Below are positions 25,592 to 30,469 of a stretch of DNA of 33,181 nt, piece after piece. The notes under the pieces are model-generated. The model had not been told where the DNA came from and did no database searches. It worked only from the letters and a program-made list of their open reading frames with translations. A program made the position numbers and the translations under genes. Each line of letters begins with the position of its first letter. Position 1 is the first letter of the stretch. Location of the stretch: contig JAAYMD010000002.1 in NCBI GenBank assembly GCA_012521575.1, positions 1 through 33,181 of the forward strand, given 5' to 3'. Source of the stretch: Mollicutes bacterium (GTDB lineage: Bacteria; Bacillota_I; Bacilli_A; RF39; UBA660).

Positions 25592-25668
25592 GGGCGATTA
25601 GCTCAGTTGGTTAGAGTACCTGCCTTACAAGCAGGGGGTCGTAAGTTCGAGTCTTACATCGCCCACCA
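25592..25668 (+). tRNA. tRNA-Val (TAC)
   Basis: Cloverleaf, loop CTTACAA, encoded CCA. Confidence 0.95.
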
Positions 25669-25669
25669 T

Positions 25670-25745
<76 letters not shown>

Positions 25746-25748
25746 CTT

Positions 25749-25834
25749 GGAGGGATAGCGAAGTGGTCAAACGCGGCAGACTGTAAATCTGTTCCCTTTC
25801 GGGTTCGATGGTTCAAATCCATCTCCCTCCACCA
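25749..25834 (+). tRNA. tRNA-Tyr (GTA)
   Basis: Class II tRNA with long variable arm, loop CTGTAAA, CCA. Confidence 0.95.
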
Positions 25835-25847
25835 TTAATTATTATAT

Positions 25848-25922
25848 TGCCTCGTAGCCAAGCGGTAAGGCACCACACTTTGACTGTGGCATTCGCTAGT
25901 TCGAATCTAGCCGAGGCAGCCA
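25848..25922 (+). tRNA. tRNA-Gln (TTG)
   Basis: Loop CTTTGAC, acceptor TGCCTCG/CGAGGCA, CCA. Confidence 0.94.
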
Positions 25923-25929
25923 TTTTTAT

Positions 25930-26005
25930 GTCCCGTTAGCTCAGTCGGTAGAGCACTTGACTTTTAATCAAGGGGTCACAAGTTCGATTCTTGTACGGGA
26001 CACCA
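25930..26005 (+). tRNA. tRNA-Lys (TTT)
   Basis: Loop CTTTTAA, acceptor GTCCCGT/ACGGGAC, CCA. Confidence 0.95.
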
Positions 26006-26006
26006 T

Positions 26007-26098
26007 GTGCCTGAGTGGCGGAACAGGTAGACGCACAGGACTTAAAATCCTGGGAGATGAATAATCTCGTGCCGGTTCAACTCCGGCCTTAGGCACCA
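26007..26098 (+). tRNA. tRNA-Leu (TAA)
   Basis: Class II, loop CTTAAAA, CCA. Confidence 0.94.
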
Positions 26099-26107
26099 TT
26101 ATTTTAT

Positions 26108-26200
26108 GGAGAAGTACCCAAGTCTGGTTGAAGGGGCCGGTCTTGAAAACCGGGAGGTCGGTAACACGACGCGGGGGTTCGAATCCCTCCTTCTCCGCCA
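26108..26200 (+). tRNA. tRNA-Ser (TGA)
   Basis: Class II, loop CTTGAAA, CCA. Confidence 0.95.
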
Positions 26201-26215
26201 TAATTAGTATTACAT

Positions 26216-26292
<77 letters not shown>

Positions 26293-26296
26293 TTTT

Positions 26297-26372
26297 GGTC
26301 CCGTGGTGTAGGGGTTAACATGCCTGCCTGTCACGCAGGAGATCGCGAGTTCAAATCTCGTCGGGACCGCCA
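26297..26372 (+). tRNA. tRNA-Asp (GTC)
   Basis: Loop CTGTCAC, CCA. Confidence 0.95.
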
Positions 26373-26376
26373 TTAT

Positions 26377-26452
<76 letters not shown>

Positions 26453-26474
26453 TTTATAATATTAAACTTGAGTC

Positions 26475-26551
26475 GCGCCCGTAGCTCAACTGGATAGAGC
26501 GTTTGACTACGGATCAAAAGGTTATGGGTTCGATTCCTGTCGGGCGCACCA
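26475..26551 (+). tRNA. tRNA-Arg (ACG)
   Basis: Loop CTACGGA, acceptor GCGCCCG/CGGGCGC, CCA. Confidence 0.95.
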
Positions 26552-26556
26552 GAAAA

Positions 26557-26633
26557 CGGGAAGTAGCACAACTTGGTAGTGCACCTGGTTTGGGACCAGG
26601 GGGTTGCAGGTTCAAATCCTGTCTTCCCGACCA
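26557..26633 (+). tRNA. tRNA-Pro (TGG)
   Basis: Loop TTTGGGA, acceptor CGGGAAG, CCA. Confidence 0.95.
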
Positions 26634-26636
26634 TTT

Positions 26637-26713
26637 GGGGAATTAGCTCAGCTGGCTAGAGCACCTGCTTTGCAAGCAGGGGGTCATCGGTTCAAGTCCG
26701 ATATTCTCCACCA
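26637..26713 (+). tRNA. tRNA-Ala (TGC)
   Basis: Loop TTTGCAA, acceptor GGGGAAT, CCA. Confidence 0.95.
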
Positions 26714-26828: not shown

Positions 26829-27083
26829 ATTATTTTTTATTTAATATTAAGAAAAATAATCTGTATAAAATAACGGTAATAATAGAGCTTAATAATTCAA
26901 AATAATTACATTTTCCATTGCATTGTAAATGTTCATTATCTATTTTACAATCAATCACTGAATCAAAATTTTATTTTTGATTCGTAAAAAATAGTTATAA
27001 TTTTATAAAAATAGTTGTGATTTTTTTCAAATTATGATAGTATTAAGTTAAATTTACTGAACGCTAACAAAGGGGTGTTTTAT

Positions 27084-27791
27084 ATGGTGAATTTTGTTGT
27101 GTGTGATGATAGCAAAGAAATTCTTAATAGTGTTAATAACATTATTGACGAAGAAATGATGAAAAATAAAATATCATATAATAAACACCTTTATCAGGAA
27201 TATGATACAGATTTTATTAAATTAATGAAATCAAAATTACCAGGTCGTATTTATATATTAGATATAGAAACGCCAAAAAATTCGGGAATAGATATTGCTA
27301 GAAAAATTAGAGAACATGATGTTGAAAGTATAATTATTTTTTTAACTACACATGATCATTTAGGATATATTGTTTTGAAAAGTGATTTTTTGTTTCTATC
27401 TTTTATTAATAAATATGATAATTATAAAGAGAATTTGCGCAAATCAATTAGGCGTGCTTTGAAATTGCTTGGAACTAAACCAGTTGTAAGATTTGAAGAT
27501 AGGGGTGCGATATATACTATCCCCATAAATGATATATTGTATATTACAAGAGATAATATTGAGAGAAAAATTGTTATAACTACAGACTATTCAAAGTATA
27601 GTGTTAATAAAACTTTATGTGACATGCTTGAAATGTTAGGGGATACTTTCAAACAATCACATCGTTCGTGTATTGTTAACACTAACAGGATATTAGCGGT
27701 TGATACGGTAAAGAAAAAAATTATTTTTGATAATGGAACGGAAATTGATTTGTTAAGTACTAAATATAAAAATGAGGTAATTGCAAAATGA
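27084..27791 (+). CDS. agrA: AgrA-like response regulator (receiver plus LytTR DNA-binding domain)
   Basis: VVCDDSKE, YILDIETPKNSGIDIARKIR, C-terminal FEDRGAIYTIPINDILYITRDN...FKQSHRSCIVNTNRI LytTR motif; AAAGGGGTG RBS, ATG 27084. Confidence 0.9.
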   Translation: MVNFVVCDDSKEILNSVNNIIDEEMMKNKISYNKHLYQEYDTDFIKLMKSKLPGRIYILDIETPKNSGIDIARKIREHDVESIIIFLTTHDHLGYIVLKSDFLFLSFINKYDNYKENLRKSIRRALKLLGTKPVVRFEDRGAIYTIPINDILYITRDNIERKIVITTDYSKYSVNKTLCDMLEMLGDTFKQSHRSCIVNTNRILAVDTVKKKIIFDNGTEIDLLSTKYKNEVIAK

Positions 27792-29089
27792 TGCTGCTTA
27801 TTAATAGTATTATTATTTCAATTGCTGGTTTTGTTGTGTCTGCTAAAATTTTTGGCAAAACTATTGAATGGAGATGCAAAAAATATCAGTTAATTATATT
27901 AATATTTATTTTTACAATTCAATTATCATATATTATTACTCCTCATTTTTTACGTGTATTATTTAATTATGTTGTATTTTTTGTTTTAAATTTAGTATAC
28001 TATAATAAAAAAATTTTTGAAGTAATGTTGAATAGTTTTTTTGTATTTATCATAACTTTTATTTCTGAAGTTATAACCGGAATGATAACTATTTACGTTT
28101 TTAACATTGATATTTCGCAGTTGTTAAATTCATACGAGGACCAATTTTTTACAAATGTTTTTATTGCAATTATTATGGTATCATTTACACATTTATTAAA
28201 ATCGTTAAAATTTTTTAAATTTCTTGCAGAAGTAGTTGAAATGATAAAATTTCATGAAGTAATACCTTTATTAATAATTATCATTTTTAGTTATGCCGCT
28301 TCTTTTTATTATTTTTACTTTCAAATAATAGGACTAACAACGTTGGCTTTAAGTACAGTAATGATTTTTGTTATATGTATTTTAATAATGATTTTATTGA
28401 AAGAAAAAAACATTAATGTACGTCTTAAAAAAGAATATGAAACTTTAATTTATAATTTAAATGAATATGAAAAAATTTTAGAAAAATATCGTATGACAAA
28501 TCATGAAAATCTTAACAATTTTATTATTATTAAAGGAATGATTGAGGATAATAGAAAAGAAGTGATTAAATATATAGATGAGATTATTAAATTAAAAAAA
28601 CATGATGATAATGAATTATTATTTAAAACTAAAAAATTACCCACTGGTGGACTTCAAGGGTTGATTTATCAAAAAATGTTAATTATGAAAGAAAAAGGTG
28701 TTGTTTTTAATCTACAAATTAGTAAAAATGTAGAGATTGACAAAATAATGAAAATTGATTTTGAAACAAAAAAAGATTTGTGTTTAATAGTAGGAGTATT
28801 TATTGATAATGCAATCGAAGCTGTAATTAATCTAGAGAAAAAAATTGTAGGTATATATGTTTATATGGATGATGAAGATGAAAATTTTTGTTTTTCTATT
28901 TCTAATAATTTTTCTGGCTTTATTGATTTAGAAAAAATAGATAATATCGGTTATTCTAGTAAAGGAACTGGTAGAGGTTATGGTCTTAGTTTAGTTAAAA
29001 AAATTGTGAATAATAATGGACTAATAACAGTAAATAGGGAAATAATTGGAGATATGTTTAAACAGACGATAAAAATAAAAATAAATTAA
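27788..29089 (+). CDS. agrC: AgrC-like membrane sensor histidine kinase
   Basis: About six hydrophobic segments, H-box-like MTNHENLNNF, N-box DNAIEA, GYSSKGTGRGYGLSLVKKIV; overlaps the agrA stop by 4 nt. Confidence 0.88.
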   Translation: MMLLINSIIISIAGFVVSAKIFGKTIEWRCKKYQLIILIFIFTIQLSYIITPHFLRVLFNYVVFFVLNLVYYNKKIFEVMLNSFFVFIITFISEVITGMITIYVFNIDISQLLNSYEDQFFTNVFIAIIMVSFTHLLKSLKFFKFLAEVVEMIKFHEVIPLLIIIIFSYAASFYYFYFQIIGLTTLALSTVMIFVICILIMILLKEKNINVRLKKEYETLIYNLNEYEKILEKYRMTNHENLNNFIIIKGMIEDNRKEVIKYIDEIIKLKKHDDNELLFKTKKLPTGGLQGLIYQKMLIMKEKGVVFNLQISKNVEIDKIMKIDFETKKDLCLIVGVFIDNAIEAVINLEKKIVGIYVYMDDEDENFCFSISNNFSGFIDLEKIDNIGYSSKGTGRGYGLSLVKKIVNNNGLITVNREIIGDMFKQTIKIKIN

Positions 29090-29197: not shown

Positions 29198-29222
29198 TGT
29201 AGGGGTGACCTACATTTTTTTT
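29198..29222 (+). terminator. Intrinsic terminator downstream of agrC
   Basis: TGTAGG-GGTGA-CCTACA followed by T8. Confidence 0.7.
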
Positions 29223-29343
29223 ATTTTATTAGATGTTCTGGCATTTCCGGTTCATCTAACCATAAAATTACACAAGCTGTACTAAGTGAGTTTGCTGCAA
29301 TGTAACCAACGGCACTTAAAATTTTAGCTACAACTATCCCCAT
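29221..29343 (-). CDS. agrD: AgrD-like autoinducing peptide precursor (40 aa, not in ORF track)
   Basis: Translation MGIVVAKILSAVGYIAANSLSTACVILWLDEPEMPEHLIK: N-terminal amphipathic/hydrophobic leader, single Cys, acidic Pro-containing tail DEPEMPEHL like staphylococcal AgrD; AAAGGAGG RBS; start overlaps the agrB 3' end. Confidence 0.88.
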   Translation of the reverse strand: MGIVVAKILSAVGYIAANSLSTACVILWLDEPEMPEHLIK

Positions 29344-29942
29344 GCTATCCTCCTTTCTAACGCATTATTATAAGGTTGTTTAAATATATAATAACTAAGT
29401 GGACTAATTAAAAATGTTTGAACGATAGTCACACTAGTTATTGCATTAGTTAAAAACATATTATTTGATAAAAAGATGATTATAAGATATATCATTAAGA
29501 CATTTAAAGATAATATTTTATATATTAGTCGTCTTTTTTTGCTAATAATTGGTCTTTTTTTAGTATCAGCAGGGGCATATTTTATAAATAGCAGAGCACA
29601 AATTAAAATAACAATAATTTTTACTATTTTGGTTATGGTAACTAATGTACATAAATAGGTAATACCTATAAAAATAATTGTTGAGCCTACTAAACAACTT
29701 AAACTGTTATTGGCATGTAGTCCAAAAGAAAACATTCTAAGAAAATTGTATAATATAACAATTATCAATAATTCTTTAAAGATTTCTAAATAGATGGCTA
29801 TTGCAAAAATGATTATGGTTTTAGTAATTGTTAGATAAATACCTTCTAATCCATATCTAATAGTTTTTAGTTGAATTTCAGTGTAATTAGGAAAAGATTT
29901 GCTTATGAATTTTATTAAATTGTCTAAAATGTAATTTTTCAT
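29334..29942 (-). CDS. agrB: AgrB-like membrane cysteine endopeptidase (accessory gene regulator B)
   Basis: 202 aa polytopic membrane protein; RMFSFGLHANNSLSCLVGS carries the AgrB catalytic His...Cys motif; YAPADTKKRPI motif typical of AgrB. Confidence 0.93.
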   Translation of the reverse strand: MKNYILDNLIKFISKSFPNYTEIQLKTIRYGLEGIYLTITKTIIIFAIAIYLEIFKELLIIVILYNFLRMFSFGLHANNSLSCLVGSTIIFIGITYLCTLVTITKIVKIIVILICALLFIKYAPADTKKRPIISKKRRLIYKILSLNVLMIYLIIIFLSNNMFLTNAITSVTIVQTFLISPLSYYIFKQPYNNALERRIAWG

Positions 29943-29999
29943 ACTACCATCACATCCCGGACCAATTATACAACAATTTTTTTAATAATTTTTATAGAT

Positions 30000-30029
30000 T
30001 GTCTAAAATGGTCGTTTTTATGTCTAAAA
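30000..30029 (-). promoter_or_regulatory. Putative AgrA/LytTR binding repeats upstream of agrBD
   Basis: Minus strand TTTTAGACA-N12-TTTTAGACA; downstream -10 TATAAT (29970..29965) without a good -35. Confidence 0.65.
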
Positions 30030-30250: not shown

Positions 30251-30469
30251 GTGTGTGTGAGAGGTAAAGTAAAATGGTTTAATAATGACAAAGGTTTTGG
30301 CTTTATTGAATATAAAGACGGTGAAGATATCTTTGTTCATTATTCAGCTATTTTATCGCCAGGCTATAAGACCTTAGTTGAAGGACAGTATGTCGAATTT
30401 GAACTTGTCCGAACTGATAAGGGATTACAAGCTAAAAATGTAGTTGAAATAAAAACTGCTCTTGTGTAG
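30251..30469 (+). CDS. Cold shock protein (CspA family)
   Basis: [30 protein letters not shown]. Start may be GTG 30251 or GTG 30257. Confidence 0.95.

Follow-up and report, generated by a model that had tools for sequence, protein, structure and literature searches.

The question that this locus raises is whether the short open reading frame (ORF) that follows agrB on the minus strand of the window (the whole stretch of 33,181 nucleotides that was analysed) encodes the precursor of an Agr quorum-sensing signal and, if so, which cyclic peptide would be made from it and which genes that peptide would control. We have read from the sequence the gene and its operon, the catalytic residues of AgrB, the operators, the single LytTR protein, and the spacing between the ring-closing residue and the conserved tail of the precursor. 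The elements of the locus are the following:

29221..29343, minus strand: agrD, precursor of 40 residues (MGIVVAKILSAVGYIAANSLSTACVILWLDEPEMPEHLIK), from the ORF translation, profile matches and relatives
29349..29356, minus strand: ribosome-binding site of agrD (AAAGGAGG), within the 3' end of agrB
29334..29942, minus strand: agrB, membrane peptidase/cyclase of 202 residues (PF04647, 112 bits)
27075..27791, plus strand: agrA, response regulator with a LytTR domain (PF04397, 54.7 bits; PF00072, 32 bits)
27788..29089, plus strand: agrC, membrane sensor kinase with a C-terminal GHKL ATPase (PF14501, 43.4 bits; synteny)
29198..29214, plus strand: terminator-like hairpin and T run for agrAC, where the two operons converge
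adjoining this hairpin: a second inverted repeat (AAGAAGTA...TACTTCTT)

Re-reading of the minus strand returns exactly the frame and the translation that the initial annotation had given, with an ATG start at position 29343 and an overlap of 10 nucleotides with the end of agrB; the ribosome-binding site claimed ahead of agrD is likewise found, at 29356..29349. The precursor has the AgrD architecture, i.e. an amphipathic leader, a Cys core and an acidic, Pro-containing tail, as seen in the sequence and in the alignment with relatives; it scores 28.2 bits against NCBIfam TIGR04223, above the cutoff of 19, and 20.5 bits against the older staphylococcal model of Pfam (AgrD, PF05931), slightly below the cutoff of 22.7. 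The description of the gene as unannotated holds in that it is shorter than the length required by the ORF track, but the standard AgrD model does recognise the peptide. The copies from the same genus, matched by tblastn with E-values down to 4e-16, are 55-65% identical to it, with invariant Cys, W, L, DEP and second Pro. The window genome (936 kb, 98% complete) has one AgrB and one AgrD in total, while in the same GTDB family, represented by draft metagenome assemblies, AgrB is detected in 238 of 386 genomes and in 110 of 150 genera. Of 134 loci from this family, nearly all have an AgrD-like ORF immediately 3' of agrB, those that lack it being mostly interrupted by the end of the contig or region; the small-ORF homology search in relatives that had been proposed finds both the ORF and its ring-closing residue conserved. 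A chance small ORF is ruled out by this family-wide conservation and by the profile match, and the stretch 29221..29343 is confirmed to encode a genuine AgrD, the precursor of the Agr quorum-sensing signal. None of the solved structures that were compared by sequence with AgrB and AgrD is similar to them.

The set of catalytic residues in AgrB (R69, G74, H76 and C83, equivalent to R70, G75, H77 and C84, which are essential in Staphylococcus aureus) is kept in essentially all family members. The agrA and agrC genes overlap, and their operon is convergent with the agrB-agrD operon, a layout that recurs across the family in loci with a long enough flank. AgrC scores 49.9 bits against the AgrC-like model NF046015, under its equivalog cutoff, and the true start of agrA is probably the ATG at 27084, since the relatives begin with MVNF. 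Elsewhere in the window, 13 tRNA genes are clustered at 25592-26713 (plus strand), antisense to which lies a probably spurious minus-strand ORF of 176 residues (26104-26634). Upstream of agrB and divergent from it, we have recognised by eye a cold-shock-like gene (30251-30469, plus strand); a single TTCGACA-like box (30173-30167, minus strand) is located between the two.

The region upstream of agrB contains two further elements:

30000..30029, minus strand: LytTR-type operator (TTTTAGACA-N12-TTTTAGACA), predicted AgrA site
29965..29970, minus strand: -10 hexamer of the agrB promoter (TATAAT), 29 bp after the operator

Known LytTR promoters carry 9-bp repeats that are 12 bp apart and end roughly 10 bp ahead of the -35 element (PMC6193735); at agrB, direct repeats of 9 bp with about 12 bp between them precede the putatively autoinduced promoter, and AgrA is predicted to bind there. 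Direct repeats with the corresponding 21-bp spacing occur at nine loci among 129 agrB upstream regions, compared with zero to three at other spacings and about one in shuffled sequences. The relaxed motif TTTNRRACA-N12-TTTNRRACA, scanned in four genomes of the window genus, has ten exact matches, all of them at agrB, at comK or at the tad pilus operon of one genome (G167); when one mismatch is allowed, there are 12, 6, 12 and 7 matches per genome, and the pattern in reverse gives 1, 0, 5 and 1. The matches at agrB arise partly by construction, because the agrB promoters of these genomes served to define the motif, while those at comK and tad do not; weaker matches elsewhere in the genome are mostly intragenic and have been discarded. 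In each of the four genomes, AgrA is the sole LytTR protein above the cutoff, and we predict that it binds the agrB operator and thereby drives autoinduction. Upstream of the tad (Flp) pilus operon, LytTR-type operators form a tandem array of six or more copies (L238 4709-4983, minus strand; a genome of the window genus).

The matches at comK, which itself is situated between dnaN and recF, are located between dnaN and comK:

C23:52525-52554, plus strand, and C23:52458-52487, minus strand (L236 3526-3555 and 3459-3488): comK operators of the window genome, by motif match
L237 3258-3287 and L239 4029-4058: comK operators of same-genus relatives, by motif match

An operator with the 21-bp repeat precedes comK in all three same-genus genomes with a readable comK promoter, the sequence of the fourth ending before it, and the distance to a -10-like hexamer (28-29 bp) is the same as at agrB; in the window genome, the site departs from the motif at one position and is adjoined by an exact, oppositely oriented copy. 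ComK scores 139-146 bits against PF06338 in the window genus, where ComEC is also present. On these grounds, a route from the autoinducing peptide (AIP) through AgrC and AgrA to comK is predicted for the window genus. It might be objected that some factor different from AgrA binds the comK operator, or that the repeat there arose by chance, with Agr and competence having no link: the operator is confined to one genus, the comK repeats of other genera differ, and in S. aureus, where earlier work has connected Agr with competence indirectly and with conflicting results (PMC9072672, PMC10182052), one study has found comG unaffected by deletion of agrA (PMC10182052). We consider this objection rather doubtful, since agrB and comK have the same motif at the same spacing to the -10 element, the operator recurs in every readable genome of the genus, and no second LytTR protein is found there.

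Beyond the window genus, 21-bp repeats show no enrichment at comK (64 genomes with agr compared with 28 without), and the comK promoters carry TTCGACA boxes spaced by 10 or 20 bp, the 20-bp repeats being the enriched ones, whether agr is present or not; a family-wide link between Agr and comK is rejected on these two findings, and the proposed link is limited to the window genus. In other genera (e.g. L296, L259 and L271), tandem TTCGACA(A) boxes occur at 10-bp steps upstream of comK and resemble Spo0A boxes.

As for the signal itself, the codons concerned are the following:

29257..29274, minus strand: predicted six-residue ring Cys24-Val-Ile-Leu-Trp-Leu29, from the anchor spacing of the family
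29224..29256, minus strand: conserved acidic tail DEPEMPEHLIK (P1' to P11'), from the family alignment

The initial annotation had placed the core correctly and had named both possible rings, taking five residues as normal and six as atypical, a ranking against which the anchor spacing speaks; it had also noted a Cys-to-Pro distance that exceeds the usual one by a residue, which is true for the window AgrD and for nearly the whole family. In a first pass over 129 family AgrDs, [C/S]-x5 precedes the acidic pair in 118, and the second residue of the pair (P2') is Glu in every one of them; P6' is Pro in 98 of the 118, P9' is L, M, F or I in 117, and P-x-x-P mostly comes after the P2' Glu, which defines the anchor [D/E]-E-P-x-x-P. 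The other 11 include three with C-x5-EEP and one with an early Cys (same spacing, missed by the script), five with C-x6 and two that are cut off. Distinct ring sequences number 113 among the 118, and hypervariable rings next to a near-invariant anchor are what one would expect if the signal diversifies while its processing site stays fixed. In the wider set of 154 family loci with AgrB, the nucleophile is located exactly six residues before [D/E]E in 146 (135 Cys, 7 Thr and 4 Ser), while six loci have a seven-residue and two a five-residue spacing, all with Cys; six DEEE-tailed sequences, scored as seven by the script, have been counted as six by hand. The resulting figure of 95% is valid for the present sample, since its loci have been chosen mainly by the similarity of their AgrB to that of the window, and more distant AgrBs show greater variation in spacing.

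Five residues separate Cys from the anchor in the window AgrD, as they do in 95% of the sampled family loci, whereas four do so in other families of Bacilli, whose AgrDs mostly show [C/S]-x4 before [Y/H/N/G]-[E/Q]-[P/E] and would give five-residue rings under the same anchor rule; the four residues between Cys and a P1'-Glu/Gln-Pro anchor that characterise a LamD-like precursor are thus absent from the window AgrD. In one relative (L170), Y-E-P replaces D-E-P, i.e. the P1'-P3' form of the five-residue AgrDs of other Bacilli. AgrB of S. aureus cleaves between M32 and D33, and both D33 and E34 are essential (PMC10196373). Laid on DEPEMPEHL, this register assigns P1' to Asp, P2' to Glu and P9' to Leu. 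In S. aureus, the residue at P9', Leu41, is likewise needed in the tail. A six-residue ring is favoured because the cut before Asp puts Glu at P2' and, by the same rule, yields the five-residue rings of other Bacilli; we favour the thiolactone CVILWL as the product, through a putative cut before Asp30, and the LamD-like pentapeptide CVILW is set aside as first choice by the anchor rule. A six-residue ring is known from Clostridium acetobutylicum ([CVLVTL]) and six-membered rings have been predicted in related clostridia (PMC12312760, PMC10301443), so that the window peptide would represent a family-wide variant and not a new class; given these precedents and the anchor rule, the likeness to LamD (CVGIW) to which attention had been drawn is probably superficial.

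The residues at positions -3 to -1 ahead of the ring are conserved as S-x-[AG] in the family alignment and may point to N-terminal processing close to Cys. This conservation bears on the reading in which the peptide is further trimmed or rearranged, e.g. through an S-to-N acyl shift that would give a homodetic ring if Cys were N-terminal, as thiolactone AIPs without a tail rearrange spontaneously (PMC11297923); we regard such a rearrangement, with which the six-residue ring is compatible, as unlikely. Quite improbable is a normal five-residue CVILW, cut before Leu29 as in LamD, the residue inserted in the family then belonging to the tail: most characterised AIPs have such a ring and the CV..W core resembles CVGIW (PMC12312760), and Leu at P1' is chemically possible because bulky P1' residues occur in other AgrDs, but the universal Glu would move from P2' to P3' behind a variable hydrophobic P1' (I, L, F, V, M or A), and the relatives with five- or seven-residue spacing retain the same anchor, their length varying on the Cys side and not on the tail side.

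The ring-closing residue is itself variable in the family. In seven AgrDs (L203, L349, L350, L351, L352, L354 and L170), Thr replaces Cys while the distance to the DEP/YEP anchor stays the same; these AgrDs belong to one genus (six species, beside one Cys species) and to one long-branch genome (L170); their rings, TYWFIF, TIWLVW, TWWFVY, TVWFFF, TWWFFW, TIWFVY and THIWFF, are followed by [D/Y]-E-P. All seven score above the AgrD model cutoff and follow an agrB in which Arg, Gly, His and Cys are preserved, and natural six-residue Thr-lactone AIPs are their likely products; no described Thr AIP has been found in the literature searched, a search that left most subscription papers outside. Ser replaces Cys in four relatives (L054, L077, L122 and L177, with SWxGWF and SAWLLL), for which six-residue lactones are predicted. 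On the AgrB tree of 161 rows, obtained by a short search and with long branches that leave deep placements uncertain, ring size and ring-closing residue need five changes each, with six residues and Cys as the background state; within the family, the seven-residue state was acquired at least twice and the five-residue state once, and Ser occurs in two places. Some genomes carry two or three agrD copies with differing predicted rings (L083, L078 and L362/L363), possibly for multiple signals or for signal switching.

It is probable that AgrD gives rise to a six-residue thiolactone that is sensed by AgrC/AgrA and induces agrBD and, in the genus, comK. From the comparisons above we infer the cut site, the ring chemistry, the sensing, the binding of AgrA and the competence output: AgrB, with His76 and Cys83 as catalytic residues, would cut AgrD before Asp30 and take off the acidic tail; Cys24 would attack the new C-terminus and close the ring, which would retain 0-2 exocyclic residues on its N-terminal side (e.g. 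TA); once released, the peptide would be sensed by AgrC, AgrC would phosphorylate AgrA, and AgrA, bound to its 21-bp direct-repeat operator, would turn on agrBD, i.e. autoinduction, as well as comK, the master regulator of competence, in the window genus.

For the joint reading, i.e. six-residue AIPs as the family default, Thr-lactones in one branch and AgrA-driven comK in the window genus, the chances appear evenly balanced. If true, a cyclic-peptide quorum signal would be wired directly to the competence master regulator in uncultured, small-genome Bacilli, and a real comK operator would mean that Agr controls DNA uptake there, a link that in S. aureus has so far been disputed and no more than indirect (PMC9072672, PMC10182052). 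The specificity of AIPs depends on both ring size and ring-closing residue; a natural series of five, six and seven residues and of Cys, Ser and Thr, sharing one AgrB fold and a constant cut-site anchor, makes the measuring of ring size by AgrB directly testable, and the predicted rings are targets for synthetic peptides in organisms that are not yet culturable. The Thr relatives and the comK operator are the more surprising parts, AgrD itself being a recognisable family member.

Among known systems, AgrBDCA of S. aureus shares with the window locus the AgrD architecture, the AgrB catalytic residues, D-E at P1'-P2', a membrane AgrC kinase, a LytTR-type AgrA and an operator upstream of the signal operon; it differs in its ring (five residues, compared with the six predicted here), in its operator sequence (TTTNRRACA here) and in its layout, the window having two convergent operons with gene orders A-C and B-D. 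The Agr system of C. acetobutylicum shares the precursor family and has the six-residue ring that is predicted here, its [CVLVTL], used as a synthetic peptide (R6T0), being Leu-terminal like CVILWL (PMC12312760, PMC10301443); it belongs to Clostridia, with agrBD and agrCA in separate operons and an associated LanM-like gene. LamBDCA of Lactiplantibacillus plantarum shares the AgrD family and the Cys-Val...Trp core, but has a five-residue ring (CVGIW), while the window AgrD has an extra hydrophobic residue before the acidic tail. Lastly, the Ser-lactone AIPs (GBAP of Enterococcus faecalis, S. intermedius group) have a hydroxyl in place of Cys, as the four Ser relatives do, whereas the hydroxyl-type relatives of the window AgrD keep six residues and seven of them use Thr.
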